Positions 2-12,048 of a stretch of 12,195 bases of DNA are shown piece after piece (the first letter of the stretch is position 1; each line of letters opens with the position of its first letter). The position numbers and the translations under genes are program-made. The DNA comes from Kiritimatiellia bacterium. Its GTDB lineage: Bacteria; Verrucomicrobiota; Kiritimatiellia; RFP12; UBA1067. The stretch is taken from positions 1 to 12,195 of the forward strand of contig JAFRBA010000177.1 in assembly GCA_017405115.1 (NCBI GenBank), in the 5' to 3' direction. A model generated the notes under the pieces. That model was not told the origin of the DNA, made no database searches, and saw nothing but the letters and a program-made list of their open reading frames with translations.

Positions 2-298
2 CGATTTGGGGACGGCCTATGTCGGTTTGGCAGGACTATGTGGCGGGGACTTGTCCCCACGAACCTTGAAAGTACGCTAAAGGCGAGGATTGAAATGCAG
101 GGCGAAACACCTATCGTGACTTGGGATCCGAACCTGAACGAAGATGGCGTAGAGCGGCGGCTCTACAAGGTCTACGGCAGCGAGACGCTGGAGAACGGCG
201 GCGAGTGGCAGTACCCGACCAACTCGCTTCACCGCTTCTTCAAGGCCTTGGTTGAGAGGCGTAGGGGTAGGGTTGACCAACAAACTAAGATTTGGTAA
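2..298 (+). CDS. C-terminal piece of a probable surface/secreted protein, 5'-incomplete
   Basis: The frame is open from base 2 to the TAA at 296-298, so the gene may begin before the window. An ATG at 38 exists but has no convincing ribosome-binding site. The recognisable part is 'TPIVTWDPNLNEDG', then 'YKVYGSETLENG', then 'YPTNSLHRFFKALVE'. From memory this resembles the short beta-rich C-terminal module (tryptophan, 'PNLN', 'PTN...RFFKV') that ends many large extracellular proteins of Kiritimatiellota-type bacteria; no function is known to me. The last residues after 'ALVE' (RRRGRVDQQTKIW) do not look like the usual ending, and a palindrome (45-58) sits in the same frame. The piece may therefore be a decaying remnant rather than the end of an intact gene. 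Whether it is expressed cannot be told from the sequence. Confidence 0.4.
   Translation, partial: RFGDGLCRFGRTMWRGLVPTNLESTLKARIEMQGETPIVTWDPNLNEDGVERRLYKVYGSETLENGGEWQYPTNSLHRFFKALVERRRGRVDQQTKIW
45..58. repeat. GGGGAC-TT-GTCCCC palindrome
   Basis: This is a perfect inverted repeat with six-base arms and a two-base centre. It is the same family as the four copies in the permease gene near 11.3 kb, which have a one-base centre. Here it is read in frame as 'GLVP' within the partial protein at 2-298. A lone GGGGAC half-site also occurs at 8-13. Confidence 0.7.
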
Positions 299-329: not shown

Positions 330-584
330 GTGCCGACTACATTGAATGTGAACGAAGCGAAGACACACTTCTCGAGCGTGGTTTCCGAAGTCGAGAAAAA
401 CCTTGTCGCATTTACTATCATGCGATATGGACGGCCTGTCGCCAGGATCGTCCCGCTTGAGTCGCCGCGCAGAACGTTCAAGCCCATTCCCGGCTTGGCC
501 GGAAAAGTCAAGGTGAAGTGCAATCTGTTTGACGACTCCTCTTGTGAATGGGAGGCCTGCGGCGATGCGCCCACTGCTTCTTGA
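330..584 (+). CDS. Phd/YefM-family antitoxin
   Basis: This is an 84-residue DNA-binding antitoxin of a type II toxin-antitoxin pair. Residues 1-46 have the Phd/YefM pattern: 'LNVNEAKTHFSSVVSEVE' followed by 'YGRPVARIVPLE', the strand-helix-strand core that dimerises on operator DNA. Residues about 50-84 ('FKPIPGLAGKVKV...LFDDSS') form the acidic, probably disordered tail that in this family wraps the toxin and blocks it. The start is GTG, chosen because AAGGAGGG precedes it. Its last 20 bases overlap the toxin gene, implying translational coupling. Base composition is unlike the downstream genes: 27 of 60 bases are G/C at 361-420 against 46 of 60 at 1201-1260, consistent with horizontal acquisition. 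Family assignment is firm; the exact regulatory behaviour is inferred from the family. Confidence 0.85.
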   Translation: MPTTLNVNEAKTHFSSVVSEVEKNLVAFTIMRYGRPVARIVPLESPRRTFKPIPGLAGKVKVKCNLFDDSSCEWEACGDAPTAS

Positions 585-954
585 CACGTGTGCAGTCCTT
601 CGGCTGGCGAACGGCGAGTTCAGAAAGTTCTCGGCTTCGGCCATGAAGGCGATGCGCGAGGCCGACATCCTCTACGTGAGTCCGATATCTGAATGGGAGA
701 TAGCGCTGAAATGGCGGGATGGCGGAATTGAGCTTCCGATGCCGCCAAGGGATCTTATGCGTACGCTTGTCGATTCCTATTCCCTTTCGTTGATTCCTTT
801 GTCGGAAGAGGTCATGTTCAAGGCGACGGAGCTGCCGGCGGTGCATCGTGACCCGGCGGATCGTTTCATAATAGCAACGGCGTCACTCGGCAATCTGACC
901 GTTGTCACAACAGACCGCCGATTCCGGGAATATGGGGTTCGCGTAATCTCATGA
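565..954 (+). CDS. PIN-domain toxin (VapC-like ribonuclease, COG3744 type)
   Basis: This 129-residue protein fills a single PIN domain. The acidic metal-binding residues expected of a PIN nuclease are present: Asp7 in 'LLLDTC', Glu43 in 'ISEWEIALKW', Asp96 and Asp99 in 'HRDPADRFIIA', and Asp117 in 'VVTTDRRF'. The 'SEWEIALK' and 'HRDPADR' motifs match the subgroup of PIN toxins paired with Phd-type antitoxins. Members of this superfamily cut RNA, often tRNA or rRNA; the target here is unknown. The ATG at 565 follows GGGAGG (550-555) at a good distance, so I prefer it to the in-frame TTG at 529. The gene overlaps the antitoxin by 20 bases, the usual antitoxin-first order. No catalytic residue is missing, so the toxin is probably active. 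Confidence 0.85.
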   Translation: MRPLLLDTCAVLRLANGEFRKFSASAMKAMREADILYVSPISEWEIALKWRDGGIELPMPPRDLMRTLVDSYSLSLIPLSEEVMFKATELPAVHRDPADRFIIATASLGNLTVVTTDRRFREYGVRVIS

Positions 955-1022
955 GGCCAGTCGCTGCGGCGAACGCGTCAAGCGGCAAAGGCGGCGCGGA
1001 CTGCGGTGTGCAGGGAAGAATC

Positions 1023-2309
1023 ATGAACATCGAGATGACGATCGAGGAGCTGAAGGCCGAGCTGCGCGCGGGGGCGCGGGCGATACTCCAGGTCAGGCAC
1101 GCGGAGCGTCCGAAGATGGACCCCGACGACCCGACCTTCGGCGACGCGCTGCACCTGACGCGCGAGGGCGTCCGCACGTCGCGCCTCCTCGGCGAGTCGC
1201 TCGCCGAGTTCGCGGGCGACGCGGCGTTCGCGTCCAGCCCGCTCACGCGCACGCGCGAGACCGCCGCGTACATAGCCGAGGGCATGGGGCTCAGGGGCGC
1301 GCTGATCGCCACGGACGAGCTGCTCGGGAACGGGTCGTTCTTCTACGAGGCCCCCATGCAGGTGCTCCACACCTTCAAGGACCTCGAGTTCTTCAACGCA
1401 TGCTTCACGTACTTCAGGGAGAGGCGGCTGCCGGGCTTCAGGGAGCTCGGCGCGGCGGCCGACGCCTGCGAGCGGTGGCTGGACGAGCACGCCGGCGGGA
1501 GGCGGCTCTTCGTGGCCGTCACGCACGACTGCTACATCGCGGCGTTCCTGAACGCGCGCGGCGCGTACGGCCCCGGCTCGCGGAAGGACTGGGTGAGGTT
1601 CCTCGACGGCGGCGTCACGCTGGTCTACCCGGACGGGTCGCGCCGCTATGCGCTGGTGCGCGCCGGGCTGTCGCACGGAATCTGCGGGGTTAGGCCGACG
1701 AGGGGGGTGGTGTTCGACTTCGGCGGCGTCATGACGACGACGACGATGCCGACGCGCGTGAGAAAGGTAACGGACTCCTTCGGCATAGAGTGGGCCGACC
1801 TCGAGCGCGGCTTCGCGAGGTACAGGCGGCTCATGGACGGCGGGTTCATCACGATAGACGACCTCTACTCGCTGATCTGGGCCGACGCCGACATAGACCT
1901 GCCGGAAGACGTCCGTGCGCGGATACTCGAGGAGGACTACGCGAGCTTCATGGAGGGGTACCGCAACCTCAAGACGCTCGAGTGGATGAGGGAGCTCAAG
2001 GCCGCCGGGTTCAAGATCGGGATACTGACGAACATGCCGCCGTCGATGGCGCCGCGGTTCAGGAAGGTCTTCGCCGACTTCATAGCGCTGGCCGACGCCG
2101 TGGTGGTGTCCGGCGAGGAGCGCATGTTCAAGCCCCAGCGCCGCATCTACGAGCTGCTCCGTTCGAGGATAGGCCTGGAGCCCGACGAACTGTGCTTCAT
2201 AGACGATGTTGAGTCGAACTGCGAGGGCGCCCGGCGCAGCGGCTGGCATGCGGTCCGCTTCGTGGACAACGACCAGGCCGCGCGGGACTTCAGGGAGCGG
2301 TTCGGCTGA
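1023..2309 (+). CDS. Histidine phosphatase-HAD hydrolase fusion protein
   Basis: This 428-residue cytosolic protein carries two unrelated phosphatase domains. Residues about 17-215 form a histidine phosphatase: 'RHAE' at 25-28 with the nucleophile His26, 'SSPLTRTRETA' at 71-81 with the phosphate-binding arginines, and 'VTHD' at 166-169 with the second His168. Residues about 226-428 form a HAD-IA phosphatase: motif I 'FDFGGV' (Asp232), motif II 'GILTN' (Thr336), motif III 'FKPQ' (Lys370), and motif IV 'FIDDVESN' (Asp394, Asp395). The second motif I aspartate is Gly234, as in YihX-like members. Both active sites look complete, so the protein may remove phosphate from two substrates or act twice in one pathway; substrates cannot be told. 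ATG 1023 follows AGGGA at 1012-1016. An in-frame ATG at 951 overlapping the toxin stop would add 24 unlikely residues. The stop shares one base with the next gene. Confidence 0.8.
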   Translation: MNIEMTIEELKAELRAGARAILQVRHAERPKMDPDDPTFGDALHLTREGVRTSRLLGESLAEFAGDAAFASSPLTRTRETAAYIAEGMGLRGALIATDELLGNGSFFYEAPMQVLHTFKDLEFFNACFTYFRERRLPGFRELGAAADACERWLDEHAGGRRLFVAVTHDCYIAAFLNARGAYGPGSRKDWVRFLDGGVTLVYPDGSRRYALVRAGLSHGICGVRPTRGVVFDFGGVMTTTTMPTRVRKVTDSFGIEWADLERGFARYRRLMDGGFITIDDLYSLIWADADIDLPEDVRARILEEDYASFMEGYRNLKTLEWMRELKAAGFKIGILTNMPPSMAPRFRKVFADFIALADAVVVSGEERMFKPQRRIYELLRSRIGLEPDELCFIDDVESNCEGARRSGWHAVRFVDNDQAARDFRERFG

Positions 2310-3247
2310 TGGAGAACCTGCTTGAGGTTGCGCAGCAGGTGGCGGTCCTCTTCGTGATGATGGGGGTCGGGGCGGCGCTTCGCCGGCTTCGGATGCTGGA
2401 CGACGCCGCGGTCGGCGGCATGGTGAACCTCCTTATGTTCGTCGTCACGCCGTGCGTGGTCGTCGACTGCTTCCAGCGTCCGTTCGACGGCGCAATGCTC
2501 GGCGGGCTGGGAATTGCGTTCGCCATCGCCTCGCTGGGGCATCTTGCGCTAATTGCAATCGCCGCGCTGTGCGTGCGCTGCCGCGGGGAGGACACGCGGC
2601 GGACGCTCATGCTCGCCGCGGTCTTCTCGAACGCGGGCTTCATGGGGCTGCCGCTGGAGCAGGCGATTCTCGGGCAGCGCGGGGTCTTCTTCGGGGCCGT
2701 CTACGTAGTCGTGTTCAACCTGTTCATCTGGAGCTGGGGCGTGAAGGCGATGGGAGGAGGGGGAAAGGAAGAAGGAAGGGGTGCGGTGTGGAAGATGGTG
2801 CTCAACCCCGGGACTGTCGGGATTGCGCTTGGACTGCCGCTCTTTCTCCTTTCGGTGCGACTGCCTGCTGTGGTCGCGGTGCCGGTCCACCATCTCTCGA
2901 ACCTGAACACGCCGCTTGCGATGGTCGCGATCGGCTACAGCCTCGCAGGCGCGCGGCTCGGCCGCGTGGCGAGGACCGGCGGCGTGTGGGTTGCCTCGAC
3001 GGTACGCCTGTTCGTCAGCCCGCTGGTCCTCGTGGCCATGATGTACCCGTTCAGGCGCAGCCTCGACGCGGACATGATGCTCGCGATGGTCATCGCGGCG
3101 TCCGCGCCCGTGGCTGCGATGGTGTCCATCTTCGCGTCCAAGTTCCGGCGAGACGTGGACGCCGGGGTCGCCGTGGTCAGCGGCACGACGCTGGCGAGCA
3201 TCGCGACGATGCCGATCGTCGTCGCGTTCGCGAAATTCGTTCTTTAG
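2309..3247 (+). CDS. AEC-family (auxin efflux carrier-like) transporter
   Basis: This 312-residue inner-membrane protein has about ten hydrophobic segments and a short polar loop in the middle ('MGGGGKEEGRGA', near residue 150). Family signatures are 'VFSNAGFMGLPL' in the N-terminal half, then 'NPGTVGIALGLPLFLL' and 'LSNLNTPLAMVAIGYSLA' in the second half, the inverted-repeat architecture of the bile/arsenite/riboflavin (BART) superfamily. Bacterial AEC proteins export or import small organic acids such as malate; the substrate is not readable from the sequence. Its ATG overlaps the TGA of the phosphatase fusion (TGATG), so the two are almost certainly co-translated. An intrinsic terminator lies just after its stop. 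Confidence 0.88.
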   Translation: MENLLEVAQQVAVLFVMMGVGAALRRLRMLDDAAVGGMVNLLMFVVTPCVVVDCFQRPFDGAMLGGLGIAFAIASLGHLALIAIAALCVRCRGEDTRRTLMLAAVFSNAGFMGLPLEQAILGQRGVFFGAVYVVVFNLFIWSWGVKAMGGGGKEEGRGAVWKMVLNPGTVGIALGLPLFLLSVRLPAVVAVPVHHLSNLNTPLAMVAIGYSLAGARLGRVARTGGVWVASTVRLFVSPLVLVAMMYPFRRSLDADMMLAMVIAASAPVAAMVSIFASKFRRDVDAGVAVVSGTTLASIATMPIVVAFAKFVL

Positions 3248-3252
3248 CCCTA

Positions 3253-3273
3253 TTGCCGCGGCGGCGATTTTTT
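3253..3273 (+). terminator. Intrinsic terminator after the AEC permease gene
   Basis: TTGCCG (3253-3258), loop CGG, and CGGCGA (3262-3267) make a six-pair stem with one T-G wobble, followed by six T residues (3268-3273). It begins five bases after the permease stop codon. The stem is short, but the position and T-run fit a rho-independent terminator. Confidence 0.5.
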
Positions 3274-3281
3274 GGTATCAT
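3253..3281 (+). promoter_or_regulatory. Putative sigma-70-type promoter for the pal-tat operon
   Basis: TTGCCG (3253-3258), 17 bases, then TATCAT (3276-3281) preceded by TGG, an extended -10. The -35 hexamer is also the left arm of the terminator stem, so ending one transcript and starting the next use the same 29 bases. Transcription would start near 3288, about 35 bases before the pal ATG. Confidence 0.55.
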
Positions 3282-3323
3282 ATGCGTCGGATTTTCCAAC
3301 TAACACTAAGGAGAAACAAGACA

Positions 3324-3887
3324 ATGAAGCTCTCGACGATGGTAACGGTTCTCGCGGTCGCGCTCTGCGTGGCGGGCTGCAAGTACAACAAGCCCGGCAA
3401 GGGTGGCGCAGGCGGGGCCGGCGGCGACGGGGCCAGCGGGCGCGACATCTCTTCCGAGGAGTTCAACAATTCCCAGGCGGGGTCGATAGGCGACGCCTCC
3501 GAGGGCAAGTTTGAGGACATGTACGCGCGCTGCACCGACGTCGACTTCGCGCCGGTGTACTTCGGCTTCGACTCGACTGTCGTGCCGCAGGGCGAGCTTG
3601 GCAAGATCGACGCGGTCGCGCAGCACCTCAATTCGCATTCCGAGCGAGTGGTGGTTGTCGAGGGCAACTGCGACGAGCGCGGCTCCAACGAGTACAACAT
3701 GTCGCTCGGCGAGAACCGCGCGGTCATAGTGCGCAACTACCTGGTGCAGAACGGCATCTCGGCGAACCGGATCCAGACCCGCAGCTACGGCGAGGAGAAG
3801 CCCGCGGCCGACGGCCACGACGAGAGCGCGTGGTCGATGAACCGCCGCGGCGAGTTCGCGATCTACGACACGACCCAGAGGAAGTGA
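3324..3887 (+). CDS. pal: Peptidoglycan-associated lipoprotein (Pal/OmpA-like)
   Basis: This 187-residue outer-membrane lipoprotein binds peptidoglycan and tethers the outer membrane to the wall. Residues 1-19 are a lipoprotein signal ending in the lipobox 'VAGC', with Cys19 the lipidated residue. A glycine-rich linker follows (about 25-40). The OmpA-like domain spans about 75-185: 'PVYFGFDSTVVP', then 'VEGNCDERGSNEYNMSLGE' with Asp117 and Arg119 positioned to bind diaminopimelate, and 'NRRGEFAI' near the end. The usual His of 'GHCDERG' is Asn here. ATG 3324 follows AAGGAG (3308-3313); an upstream in-frame ATG at 3282 would put an arginine-rich stretch before the signal peptide. No tolA, tolB or tolQ neighbour is visible. 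Instead Tat genes follow at once, 11 bases downstream. Confidence 0.9.
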   Translation: MKLSTMVTVLAVALCVAGCKYNKPGKGGAGGAGGDGASGRDISSEEFNNSQAGSIGDASEGKFEDMYARCTDVDFAPVYFGFDSTVVPQGELGKIDAVAQHLNSHSERVVVVEGNCDERGSNEYNMSLGENRAVIVRNYLVQNGISANRIQTRSYGEEKPAADGHDESAWSMNRRGEFAIYDTTQRK

Positions 3888-3898
3888 CGACGGTCTAG

Positions 3899-4330
3899 AT
3901 GGCATTCGCGATCGTTTTTGATAGCGTGGGGGCCGGCGAGTGGTTGGTGCTGCTCGCCGTGCTTCTTGTCGTGATGGGGCCCAAGCGGCTGCCGTCCGTC
4001 ATACGTTCGTTCGGAAACCACTACGCGAAGTTCCGCCGCGCCGCGGAGAGCTTCAAGCGGCAGATAATGGAGATGGACACCGAGTTCGAGCGGGCCGTCG
4101 ACTCTGCCGCCCGCGAGGCCGAGGAGGCGGCGAAGATACCGGACGTCGCGGATGATCCCGCCGTGGATCCCGCGTATGGCCCTGATGGGCCGTATGGTTC
4201 GGACGGGCCCTACGGCCCTGACGGCCCGGAATCCCCGGAGGGTTCCGCAGGTCGTGAAACCCAGGACGCTCCGGAGGGGGGTGCGGAGCAGGCGGCGGCA
4301 GATGGCGATCGAGCTTCTCAAGAATCCTGA
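3899..4330 (+). CDS. tatB: Twin-arginine translocase TatA/TatB-family subunit (TatB-like)
   Basis: This 143-residue protein has one N-terminal membrane helix (about residues 14-27, 'EWLVLLAVLLVVM'), the hinge 'GPKRLP' (27-32), and a long amphipathic, charged helix to about residue 80. Glu14 before the helix, 'GP' instead of 'FG' at the hinge, and the long helix resemble TatB more than TatA, but the two cannot be separated safely by eye. With TatC it would form the receptor for folded proteins bearing twin-arginine signals. The tail is acidic and proline/glycine-rich, with three copies of a six-residue repeat (93-110), presumably disordered. It sits between pal and tatC and overlaps tatC by 29 bases in another frame. 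If this is TatB, a separate TatA should exist elsewhere in the genome. Confidence 0.8.
   Translation: MAFAIVFDSVGAGEWLVLLAVLLVVMGPKRLPSVIRSFGNHYAKFRRAAESFKRQIMEMDTEFERAVDSAAREAEEAAKIPDVADDPAVDPAYGPDGPYGSDGPYGPDGPESPEGSAGRETQDAPEGGAEQAAADGDRASQES
4175..4228 (+). repeat. Three tandem 18-base repeats coding YGPDGP-type hexapeptides
   Basis: Units at 4175-4192, 4193-4210 and 4211-4228 encode YGPDGP, YGSDGP and YGPDGP. Third-codon positions differ between the units, so the peptide repeat seems kept while the DNA has drifted. It lies in the cytoplasmic tail of the TatB-like protein. Confidence 0.8.
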
Positions 4331-9003: not shown

Positions 9004-11076
9004 ATGAGCGCAGACCTTTCGAACGTCAGGAACATCGGCATCGTCGCCCACATCGACGCGGGCAAGACGACGACGACCGAACGCATTCTCTTCTACACCG
9101 GCAAGATACACAAGCACGGCGACGTGCACGACGGCAACACGACCACCGACTTCATGGTGCAGGAGCGCGAGCGAGGCATCACGATCCAGTCCGCCGCGAT
9201 CTCCTGCGAGTGGAAGGGCTGCGCGATCAACATCATCGACACGCCCGGCCACGTCGACTTCACGATGGAGGTGGAGCGCTCGCTGCGCGTCCTCGACGGC
9301 GCGGTGTGCGTGTTCTGCGCCGTCGGCGGCGTGCAGCCGCAGTCCGAGACCGTCTGGCGCCAGGCCGACCGGTACAACGTGCCGCGCCTCGCGTTCGTGA
9401 ACAAGATGGACCGCATGGGCGCCGACTTCCAGCGCGTGGTGGACGAGCTGCGCGGCAAGCTGAAGGCGGAGGCCTGCCCGGTCGAGATACCCATCGGCCG
9501 GGAGGAGTCGTTCACGGGTGTGGTGGACCTCATCGAGATGAAGTCGATAGTCTACGACGAGGCGACGGAAGGCAAGACGTTCACCGTGGGCGAGGTGCCC
9601 GACGAGCTGAAGGACGACGCGGAGCTCGCCCGCGCGGAGCTCGTCGAGAAGGTGGCGGACCTCGACGAGGGCGTGATGGAGGCGTATCTCGAGAAGGGCG
9701 ACCTCTCGAGGGACGAGCTGGTGCCGGCGATACGCAGGCTGGTCGTCGCAGGCCGGCTCGTGCCCGTGCTCTGCGGGACTTCGCTCCGGGACAAGGGCGT
9801 GCAGCCTCTCCTCGACGCGGTCTGCGCGTACCTGCCGAGCCCGGCGGACAGGCCGCCAGTCGCGGCGACCGACCTCAAGACCGGCGAGCGCGTGACGCGC
9901 GAGCAGAAGGACTCCGAACTCCTGACCGCGCTCGTGTTCAAGATCGCGACGGACCCGTACGTTGGGCGGCTTTTCTTCGTGCGCGTGTACGGCGGGGTGC
10001 TCAAGAAGGGCGCGAACGTCTTCAACCCGCGCACGCGCAGGCGCGAGCGCATAATGAAGATCGTGCGGCTCTTTGCGGACGACCAGATAGAGGTGGACGA
10101 ACTTAGCGCCGGCGACATCGGCGCCATAGTCGGCCTGAAGGAGGCGACCACGGGCGACACGCTCTGCGCGGAGGTGAAGTCGTGCTACCTCGAGCGCATC
10201 ACAGCGCCGCAGCCCGTCATGTTCATGGCGATCGAGCCGAAGAGCTCGGCCGACAAGGATAAGCTCGTGGAGTCGATGAAGGCCCTGGCCGCGGAGGACC
10301 CGACTTGCCAGTTCCGTGAAGACGAGGAGACGGGGCAGACCATCCTCTCCGGCATGGGCGAACTTCACCTCGAGATACTGGTGGACAGGCTGAAGCGCGA
10401 GTTCAAGTGCGCGGCGAACACCGGCAAGCCGATGGTGTCGTACTGCGAGACGGTTACGAAGCCATCCGAGGCCGACTTCACGTTTGACCGCGAGCTGGGC
10501 GGCAAGCGCCACGCGGTGTCGCTGCGCATAGCCGTGAAGCCGCTCGAGCGCGGCGCGGGACACAAGGTGACGCTCTCCCGCGAGTTCACCGGACTCGTCA
10601 CCGACCGGCATCTGCAGGAGTGCGTAACCCAGGGCCTCGAGGACGGCGTAGCCACCGGGGTGCTGGCGCGCTATCCTATGACGGACATAGAGGTGACGTG
10701 CCTCGCCGCCACGCTCGTGGACCCGGAGGTGTCTGACGAGGTGGCGTTCCGCTCTGCGGCCATGATGGGCTTTCGCGAGGCGGCGGCGGGCGCAGCGCCG
10801 GAGTTCCTCGAGCCTATCATGAAGCTGGAGATCACTACGCCGCCGGAGTCCGTCGGCGAGGTGCTCGGCGACCTGAACGGACGCCGCGGCACGGTGCTCG
10901 ACATGGAGATGCGCGGCGACATGCAGATCGTGCATGCGCGCGTGCCAATGGCCCAGATGTTCGGCTATTCGACGGCCATGCGGTCCCTTACCAAGGGCCG
11001 GGCCTCCTACTCGATGGAGCCGGACATGTTCGAGATCGCGCCGAAGAACGTGCGCGACGCGATCCTGGCGATGTGA
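9004..11076 (+). CDS. fusA: Translation elongation factor G
   Basis: This 690-residue GTPase drives ribosome translocation and/or recycling. G-domain motifs: 'AHIDAGKT' (15-22), switch I '[12 protein letters not shown]' (54-65), 'DTPGHVDF' (79-86), '[10 protein letters not shown]' (133-142) and 'CGTS' (257-260). Domain II is around 300-400, domain III contains '[15 protein letters not shown]' (449-463), and domain V ends with '[20 protein letters not shown]' (648-667). It differs from the common str-operon EF-G: 'GITIQSAA' rather than 'GITITSAA', Cys105 where 'FDAVGG' is usual, and in domain IV 'LGGKRHAV' (498-505) where 'GGRGQYG' is typical. It lies beside an RNase and a permease, not rpsL/rpsG/tuf, so it may be a paralogue. 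No Shine-Dalgarno is visible before the ATG. The family is certain; the subtype is not. Confidence 0.9.
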
Positions 11077-11118
11077 CGCATGCGCCGGCGGGTCCTTCGC
11101 CGCGAGGGTGCCATACGG

Positions 11119-12048
11119 ATGACCGACAGGGCGAAAGGCATTGCAGCCATAACAGCGAGCGCGTTTGGCTTCGCGCTCATGGCGGCATGCGTGAGACTGG
11201 CGGACGACTACGGCAGTCCGATTTCTAGCTTCCAGAAGAGCTTCTTTCGGAATGTCGTCGCGCTTGCGATAGCCTTTTCTGTCTTCATTCGCAGGGGCCT
11301 GTCCCCGTCCAAAGGGGGCCTGTCCCCGTTCAAGCCGTCCATGTGCGGGTCGTCAAAGGGGGGACTGTCCCCGGTTTTTGGGGGACTGTCCCCAAAGGCC
11401 GCCGGGCTGCTTATTTTGCGAAGTCTGCTTGGAACCTGCGGAATATTCGCGAATTTCTACGCTCTCGGGCTTGTGCCGATAGCCGACGGACAGACGCTCA
11501 ACAAGACCGCGCCGTTCTTCACCGTGGCGTTCGCCTGGCTCTTTTCCGGCGAGAAGGCGTCCATGCGGCAGGTCGTTGCCCTCGCGTTCGCCTTCGCCGG
11601 GGTGGTCTTCGTGGCCAAGCCCGGCTTTGCCGGAGACGCGGCCTTTCCGCTTGCGATGGGGCTGCTCGGCGGGGCGTGCGCCGGCGGGGCGTACGCGTGC
11701 GTGCGCGCGCTCAGGCGCCATGCGGTGGAGCCCGCGTTCATCGTGCTCTTCTTCAGCGCGTTCTCGTGTCTTGCGTCCGTTCCGTTCATGCTGGCGCGCT
11801 TTGACCCGATGAGCGCAAGCCAAGTGGCGATACTCTTCGGCGCCGGGGCGGGCGCGGCCATAGGGCAGTTCGGCATCACGCTCGCATACGGCTACGCCGC
11901 TCCGCGCGACATAGCGGTCTACGACTATTCGAACATCCTCTTCACCGCGGCATTCGGGCTTCTCCTCTTCGGCCAGGTGCCGGATGTCTGGTCGGTTCTC
12001 GGCTTCGCGCTCATTCTGGCTGCGGCATTTCGTCTCAACCGCCCGTAA
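11119..12048 (+). CDS. EamA/DMT-family permease with repeat-derived insertion
   Basis: This 309-residue inner-membrane protein has the two EamA halves of about five helices each. The first half includes 'SFQKSFFRNVVALAIAF' (37-53) and 'GLVPIADGQTLNKTAPFFTV' (117-136); the second runs from about 175 ('PLAMGLLGGACAGGAYACV') to 'VLGFALILAAAFRLNRP' at the end. Drug/metabolite transporters of this kind move amino acids, nucleotide precursors or other small metabolites; the substrate is unknown. Between helices 2 and 3, residues about 60-93 are an extra loop containing four 'GLSP' units made by palindrome copies; relatives usually have a short loop there. The reading frame is intact across it, so the protein is probably still made. 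ATG 11119 follows GAGGG at 11104-11108. An earlier in-frame ATG at 11080 would add 13 arginine-rich residues and is possible. It begins 42 bases after EF-G. Confidence 0.85.
   Translation: MTDRAKGIAAITASAFGFALMAACVRLADDYGSPISSFQKSFFRNVVALAIAFSVFIRRGLSPSKGGLSPFKPSMCGSSKGGLSPVFGGLSPKAAGLLILRSLLGTCGIFANFYALGLVPIADGQTLNKTAPFFTVAFAWLFSGEKASMRQVVALAFAFAGVVFVAKPGFAGDAAFPLAMGLLGGACAGGAYACVRALRRHAVEPAFIVLFFSAFSCLASVPFMLARFDPMSASQVAILFGAGAGAAIGQFGITLAYGYAAPRDIAVYDYSNILFTAAFGLLLFGQVPDVWSVLGFALILAAAFRLNRP
11294..11393. repeat. Four REP-like palindromes in two pairs inside the permease gene
   Basis: The copies are at 11294-11306 and 11315-11327 (GGGGCCTGTCCCC, one arm mismatch) and at 11360-11372 and 11381-11393 (GGGGACTGTCCCC, perfect six-base arms around T). 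Each pair has an 8-base spacer, giving a 21-base period; 32 bases separate the pairs. Because 21 is a multiple of three and the pairs are 66 bases apart, all four copies are read in the same frame as 'GLSP'. The paired arrangement recalls REP/BIME elements moved by REP-associated tyrosine transposases in other bacteria. No such transposase is in this window, so that link is inference. Confidence 0.85.

Follow-up and report, generated by a model that had tools for sequence, protein, structure and literature searches.

A 13-bp palindrome in gene loops of gut Kiritimatiellae-type bacteria and its association with a tyrosine transposase clade

The four short palindromes that lie in frame in a permease gene of the window (the whole 12,195-nt stretch of DNA that was analysed) are interpreted here, with a probability of roughly 0.7, as members of a miniature 13-bp repeat family of gut Kiritimatiellae-type bacteria, which is linked to RAYT/TIRYT transposases, whose copies inside genes persist in loops, where they grow by short tandem duplication, and whose mobility we infer. 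Copies of the motif surround a transposase gene, are nearly confined to a family of 114 genomes, and occupy intergenic as well as coding positions; orthologous proteins repeatedly have them in the same loops.

The earlier work on Rickettsia palindromes and intragenic REPs left unsettled how repeats enter genes and whether proteins are shaped by them. In the 114-genome family one transposase clade, an associated 13-bp motif, and orthologues with and without copies coexist, so that insertion, loss, and loop growth could be counted on a tree. A simple rule, according to which the G4 and C4 arms of the palindrome are translated into Gly...Pro in any frame, can make such a repeat tolerable within genes.

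The palindrome array and the TM2-TM3 loop of the permease

The exact-match scan of the window detected four copies of GGGGNCTGTCCCC (Table 1), all in the GLSP-reading frame of the EamA permease ORF and spaced by 21 bases inside each pair and by 66 bases from pair to pair, which confirmed the sites, the spacing, and the frame given in the sequence-only reading. Only 0.01 exact matches per window are expected, and none of 200 shuffles reached four. When up to two mismatches were allowed, 10 matches were obtained against 1.4 expected, eight of which are the four permease copies counted on both strands, while the other two lie at 46-58 and 9844-9856.

Table 1. Features of the window.
Feature	Position	Strand	Description
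Near-copy of the palindrome	46..58	+	GGGACTTGTCCCC, 2 mismatches, degenerate, may be chance; 5' of first gene
Phd/YefM-type antitoxin and PIN-domain toxin gene pair	252-584 and 529-954		PF02604, PF01850
Single ORF fusing histidine phosphatase and HAD hydrolase domains	951-2309		PF00300, PF00702
EamA/DMT-family 10-TM permease gene carrying the array	11080..12048	+	ORF; PF00892, E 6e-18
Palindrome copy 1	11294..11306	+	GGGGCCTGTCCCC, read as (R)GLSP
Codons of non-helical low-confidence loop, residues 75-104, TM2 to TM3	11302..11391	+	AlphaFold model
Palindrome copy 2	11315..11327	+	GGGGCCTGTCCCC, read as (G)GLSP
Palindrome copy 3	11360..11372	+	GGGGACTGTCCCC
Palindrome copy 4	11381..11393	+	GGGGACTGTCCCC

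Synonymous-codon resampling of the 39-residue stretch of the permease, in which the same residues were kept and codons were drawn according to the codon use of the window, yielded a mean of 0.14 copies and a maximum of 3 in 20,000 trials versus the four observed. Therefore the DNA is conserved beyond the need of the peptide, and the repetition is one of DNA and not merely of peptide.

The 21-bp units that start at copies 1 and 2 are identical at 18 of 21 bases, and so are the units that end at copies 2 and 3 (the 13-mer with 8 upstream bases, which alone agree at 6/8 positions); for copies 3 and 4 the identity is only 14-15 of 21 bases, little more than the 13-mer itself. If the match upstream of copies 2 and 3 is set aside, the two pairs have no more than 2/8 positions in common in their 8-base spacers, and single 21-bp units thus fit better than the duplication or movement of a pair as a unit, which had been proposed from the C shared by both copies of the first pair. 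This C is a weak sign of duplication, since it fills the same position at 26% of 236 aligned sites (see below), and the unit identities of copies 1/2 and 2/3 are the better evidence of local duplication.

The AlphaFold model of the permease built from 103 sequences has a mean pLDDT of 86.1 (only 53 in a model built from 26 sequences) and the DMT fold, with LicB (7paf_A) as the best Foldseek match (TM-score 0.84 by target and 0.74 by query). In this model 30 non-helical residues connect helix 50-74 to helix 105-131, and among them the pLDDT falls below 50 at 78-81 and 87-96; by the usual DMT topology this TM2-TM3 loop is presumably cytoplasm-facing. Measured between two conserved blocks, SFFRNVVA and LRSLLGTCGIFAN, the loop has 51 residues, against 27-54 (median 36) in the 120 listed homologues of 1,557. 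The motif-bearing stretch covers about 33 residues, and the extra loop of about 34 residues claimed earlier shrinks to a net excess of about 15 when set against the median of these 120 listed homologues and of 24 when set against the shortest. The longer loop is probably without effect on transport.

Among the same 120 listed homologues (of 1,557) only P0001, P0002, P0005, and P0008 carry at least two GLSP in the loop. P0001 is 96% identical to the window permease and has the same loop save for one residue, and P0002 (90% identical) has three GLSP in a loop 15 residues shorter than that of the window. Repeated GLSP is lacking in P0003, P0004, P0006, and P0007, which are 81-84% identical, and P0003 and P0004 (83-84%) have no GLSP at all. 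Therefore the array, present in P0001 and P0002 versus absent in P0003 and P0004, varies among close relatives, and the alignment of the permease to its relatives shows the loop array to be absent from most homologues.

It is extremely improbable that the array is a conserved protein feature, in which a GLSP repeat is selected for its function in the permease loop, although the four homologues with at least two GLSP could be cited in its favour. Their share among the listed homologues and the lack of repeated GLSP in the 81-84% identical proteins are against it, the synonymous null rejects it, and the EamA gene of the relative G012 carries the same DNA motif in the corresponding loop in another frame, where it is read as GPVP; this explanation was rejected on the null together with such frame changes between genomes. 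The null and the G012 loop also speak, indirectly, against the refuting condition named in the sequence-only reading, namely close homologues whose GLSP-rich loop is encoded by different DNA. Among 39 distinct EamA loops located in genomes of relatives the motif is present in that of G012 alone, which counts against the transposase-linked repeat family.

The occurrence of the same 13-mer in loci of different projects (RUG, RGIG, UBA, and RUI), many of them with intact frames, and the loop of P0001, which represents a cluster of its own with 14 member sequences, make an assembly artefact of metagenome contigs scarcely credible, even though, to judge by titles, metagenome assembly seems to be the origin of the window and of most relatives, and repeats can be misassembled.

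Distribution of the motif and the associated transposase clade

An alignment scan gave 55 loci, mostly labelled Kiritimatiellae, Verrucomicrobia, Lentisphaerae, or uncultured rumen-project bacterium, and the 13-mer was present in seven of them. The reference family for further counts comprised 114 genomes, labelled Kiritimatiellae or Verrucomicrobia, around G001, the home of the best EamA locus (L001, 72% identity). The A-form of the motif occurs in 58 of these 114 genomes with up to 98 copies each, in total 1,194 sites versus 3 for the reversed control, so that over-representation, on which the proposal of a repeat family depended, was found in relatives. Outside the family, in the 368 genomes that are left of a 387-genome sample of the phylum after removal of 19 family members, any A-form is found in 16 genomes and in none of them more than three times.

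The palindrome has no stop in any reading frame of any of its four variants, and every frame encodes Gly-x-x-Pro, the G4 arm providing a Gly codon and the C4 arm a Pro codon whatever the frame. In the alignment of 236 sites the conservation ends sharply at 13 bp (the best flanking column reaches 0.24 bits), and no conserved GTAG/GTGG-like foot was found across these sites. Conservation of 13 bp only, with no flanking element, would also suit a functional DNA site, for instance a highly iterated palindrome like HIP1 or a signal for methylation, repair, or protein binding, which accumulates by substitution and gene conversion in coding and noncoding DNA and is used by a domesticated transposase. 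This alternative is considered rather unlikely, and the span of A-form counts from 0 to 98 within a single family is one of the facts against it. HIP1 of cyanobacteria is likewise a palindrome of very few bases that abounds in coding sequence; the 13-bp motif differs from it by its transposase link, HIP1 not being known to have one.

The 236 sites include 58 neighbour pairs less than 60 bp apart, 44 in the same and 14 in the opposite orientation, and a distance of exactly 21 is the commonest spacing (14 pairs). Such spacing and the 18/21 unit identities in the permease gene are consistent with ordinary tandem repeat growth, in which a chance GGGGNCTGTCCCC in a loop was expanded by replication slippage and no mobile element took part. 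As the full cause slippage is disfavoured and improbable, because it leaves unexplained why a genome can have as many as 98 dispersed copies, why the motif is almost limited to one family, and why it is concentrated at one transposase clade; it is retained as a local amplification step within the transposase-linked family.

The transposase in question was recognized in G007 as a 378-residue Y1_Tnp protein (L191:3486-4619), which scores over the cut-off and has motif copies on either side of its gene. Its relatives in G011 and G013, likewise with motif copies around them, show 40-51% identity with it and between themselves along some 400 residues. In the clade seeded by this protein the motif is present at 14/14 loci versus 3/30 other Y1 loci (Fisher 6e-9; L085, L086, L091, L101, L208, and L211 were omitted as duplicates or fragments), so that a REP-type tyrosine transposase clade, of the kind that the sequence-only reading proposed to look for, is tied to the motif in relatives. 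The family-wide search gave a transposase match of at least 100 bits in 14 genomes, all of which have at least 6 A-form sites versus 23 of the 100 others (Fisher 2e-8, one-sided, without kinship correction), and in G016 none of the 8 A-form sites is farther than about 1.1 kb from the transposase gene. The clustering at the transposase gene, both at the 14 loci and in G016, also argues against the functional-site explanation.

Y1_Tnp was over the cut-off in 6/6 clade proteins tested, and the NHxH motif is present in 12/12 printed clade members, which had been found by that motif. The REP_Tyr_transpos profile NF047646 gave 46.6 and 63.9 bits with a cut-off of 80 for the two clade proteins tested, which are thus related to this profile but divergent. 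In the six proteins no Pfam match to Bac_DnaA_C, HTH_23, or HTH_28 was obtained up to E 5, a search that a diverged HTH might escape. After the HUH motif the transposase has a loop of its own, in which 8/12 readable members (L197 and L204, with an unreadable loop, being excluded) carry an in-frame copy with no more than one mismatch, exact in 6 of them.

Against the link count 18 genomes with at least 10 A-form sites (up to 98, in G102) and G012 with its 78 N-form sites, in all of which no transposase match of at least 100 bits was found; these motif-rich genomes favour the functional-site alternative, and MAG gaps may be the reason for the missing matches. The 12,195-nt window itself contains no transposase gene, and neither a mobility event nor a target-site signature was seen in the analysed genomes. 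The transposase link is an association only, uncorrected for relatedness.

Motif copies inside genes

The location of copies was studied in G007 and G012, which were picked as motif-rich, with CDS predicted by a home-made codon-model caller trained on the window genes and then on the loci (an earlier version often picked the antisense frame in high-GC DNA and was superseded by the retrained one). Inside called CDS lie 22 of 40 sampled sites in G007 (79 in the genome) and 57 of 72 sampled sites in G012 (78 in the genome). About 91-92% of the sampled sequence was called coding, and thus, with 55-79% of sites inside genes, the intragenic copies are rarer than expected by chance, yet abundant.

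In-frame copies were found in Pfam-backed genes for radical SAM (HemW-like) protein, histidine kinase, Proton_antipo_M, GH106, GH43, SNF2, and 2-hydroxyacid dehydrogenase, and in GH106 and GH43 they are located right behind the N-terminal hydrophobic segment. The adjoining GH106 and GH43 genes of G012 (L164:6-3089 and 3089-4252) bear similar three-copy arrays whose spacings of 22 and 23 bp put the copies into two reading frames.

The HemW-like gene, whose protein was matched in 106/114 family genomes, is the only one for which insertion against orthologues was demonstrated. In G007 its loop has 96 residues with five copies, while the loop of five orthologues, whose identity is 80-87% up to residue 265 and 57-61% from residue 306 on, has 54 residues with a single 1-mismatch copy, and in the L227 orthologue (79% identical) it has 42 residues and no copy. 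The loop made 42 residues longer than in the five orthologues by the five-copy array is a further argument against a functional site gained by substitution and gene conversion. A copy with no more than one mismatch is present in 16 of 40 HemW-like orthologues, 8 of them exact, and the copies gather at few alignment positions; the 40 consist of the 30 best-scoring ones (11 with a copy) and 10 hand-picked ones, mostly from motif-rich genomes (5 with a copy). The peptide encoded in this same loop shifts with frame and strand among genomes, which speaks for the DNA and not the peptide as the repeated unit, and appears as GQSP, GLSP, GQTP, GVCP, or GQAP. One HemW-like gene (L282, G078:C12) contains seven motif copies, one of them mismatched, scattered over several places.

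In FolC the copies are present in 10 of the 30 best open frames, some of them outside the matched part, and in the conserved core of G012 FolC the motif swaps two residues for three and is not a 13-bp insertion. The replacement in place of insertion is in favour of a functional site, and so is the 13-mer at a fixed peptide in TsaB orthologues, where the conserved GTGP is spelled GGGACAGGCCCC after G and the exact 13-mer occurs in 8/30 orthologues (L302-L331). Nevertheless, about 3.6 such cases are expected among the 27 orthologues with GTGP when codon counts are multiplied as independent, the orthologues being counted irrespective of shared descent. The TsaB matches are probably due to ordinary codons and descent, so they are regarded as nothing unusual and call for caution with intragenic counts; TsaB was dropped as a proof of motif selection, and some intragenic matches, those of TsaB among them, are probably ordinary codons and not insertions.

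The earlier suggestion of a dispersed family of palindromes, settling in coding sequence and tolerated in protein loops, is supported.

Relation to known repeats and the proposed course of events

Published systems are compared below as far as the available portions of the cited papers describe them. Intragenic REPs, RPEs, and REPs inside tnpA-REP genes are already published, while a family as short as this one, appearing again and again in the same loops of proteins, seems to be new. The literal 13-mer was absent from the literature searched, and the search for Kiritimatiell with RAYT or palindromic gave no publication on the subject, judged by titles and abstract openings. The O. terrae mentioned below is, we assume, Opitutus terrae, a verrucomicrobium.

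The intragenic REPs keep the ORF frame, and over half of them are dimers or groups encoding 20-30 residues, with a link to tyrosine transposases (Di Nocera, De Gregorio and Rocco 2013, PMC3733652); O. terrae had the largest number of GTAG repeats within genes (PMC3733652). The palindromes described here resemble them as frame-keeping and often grouped elements in ORFs with a tyrosine transposase link, whereas the published ones are GTAG- or CGTC-tagged and mostly lie between genes, and the 13-mer is untagged with 55-79% of the sampled G007 and G012 copies in genes. Compared with the REP definition in the available part of PMC8266576, the motif has only 13 bp and no conserved foot, and it is not mostly intergenic, as the 22/40 and 57/72 sites in called CDS of the two motif-rich genomes show, while high copy number and RAYT association are found in relatives. 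Of the REP-like element proposed earlier, the copy number and the transposase link in relatives have stood, and a REP in the strict sense, with a GTAG/GTGG foot, has not. As length, foot, and location differ, the family is classed as a RAYT/TIRYT-linked variant and not as REP.

In TIRtrons (TIRYTs) the tyrosine transposase genes are flanked by GGGGWSAS repeats, with dimers and clusters possible (PMC3733652), and the TIRYTs are placed in subclass 2.1, all 20 of which are said to have an HTH C-terminus (PMC6006769). The likeness lies in GGGGACAG within GGGGACAGTCCCC, that is, one arm and the centre of the motif, which fits GGGGWSAS and flanks a Y1 transposase (PMC3733652). The differences are that the 6/6 clade proteins are without Pfam HTH, unlike the TIRYTs of subclass 2.1 (PMC6006769), and that the repeats known from the literature are presented as terminal inverted ones (PMC3733652, PMC6006769). 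Subclass 2.4 is similar in having REPs in frame within the tnpA-REP gene after the HUH motif, but these are long and some have a double foot (PMC6006769), whereas here the 13-bp units occur in 8/12 readable genes. The Rickettsia palindromic elements are also in-frame palindromes in unrelated genes; however, they are about 150 bp long with a conserved peptide (PMC10969869), and the 13-bp motif uses all six frames.

The course of events proposed for this transposase-linked family would begin with the transposase recognizing the G4...C4 hairpin in single-stranded DNA and spreading copies, an idea of single-stranded hairpin copying taken from the TnpA-REP biochemistry as presented in the available part of PMC8266576. 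Insertions in genes would be partly purged, as suggested by the lower share of copies in genes, and the remaining copies may persist in disordered, indel-tolerant loops, because the palindrome lacks stops in any frame and encodes the turn-friendly Gly-x-x-Pro in all six. With Gly and Pro codons in any frame, a copy landing in a loop would therefore add Gly-x-x-Pro. The surviving copies could then expand or shrink via tandem duplication of short units (21 bp being 7 codons), and by such growth the TM2-TM3 loop of the permease may have been lengthened by about 15 residues over the median listed homologue. A further-reaching view, that the 13-bp unit is a coding-compatible mobile element acting as a family-wide generator of loop diversity via repeated insertion and 21-bp expansion, the loop of its own transposase included, is put forward as a tentative and rather doubtful extension.

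Other repeats were observed in the same loops. In G004 the loops of two unrelated genes, EamA (L004) and FolC (L255), contain the identical 26-nt stretch AGGTTGAGGTTGAAGGTGGAGGTGGA, possibly a second repeat family of the same habit; in G012 these two loops bear the 13-bp palindrome. A 17-base pattern taken from a palindrome-like EamA insert of G011 was found once in G011 and was absent from five other genomes, so that no exact repeat family is present there. The view that the EamA loop is struck by many other dispersed repeat families was borne out only in part, AGGTTGAGGTTGAAGGTGGAGGTGGA being for it and the G011 pattern against it. Odd in-frame inserts, AFAKATAGRR and NPVNPV, are found in the EamA loops of L018, L030, and L034, the first being the source of the G011 pattern.
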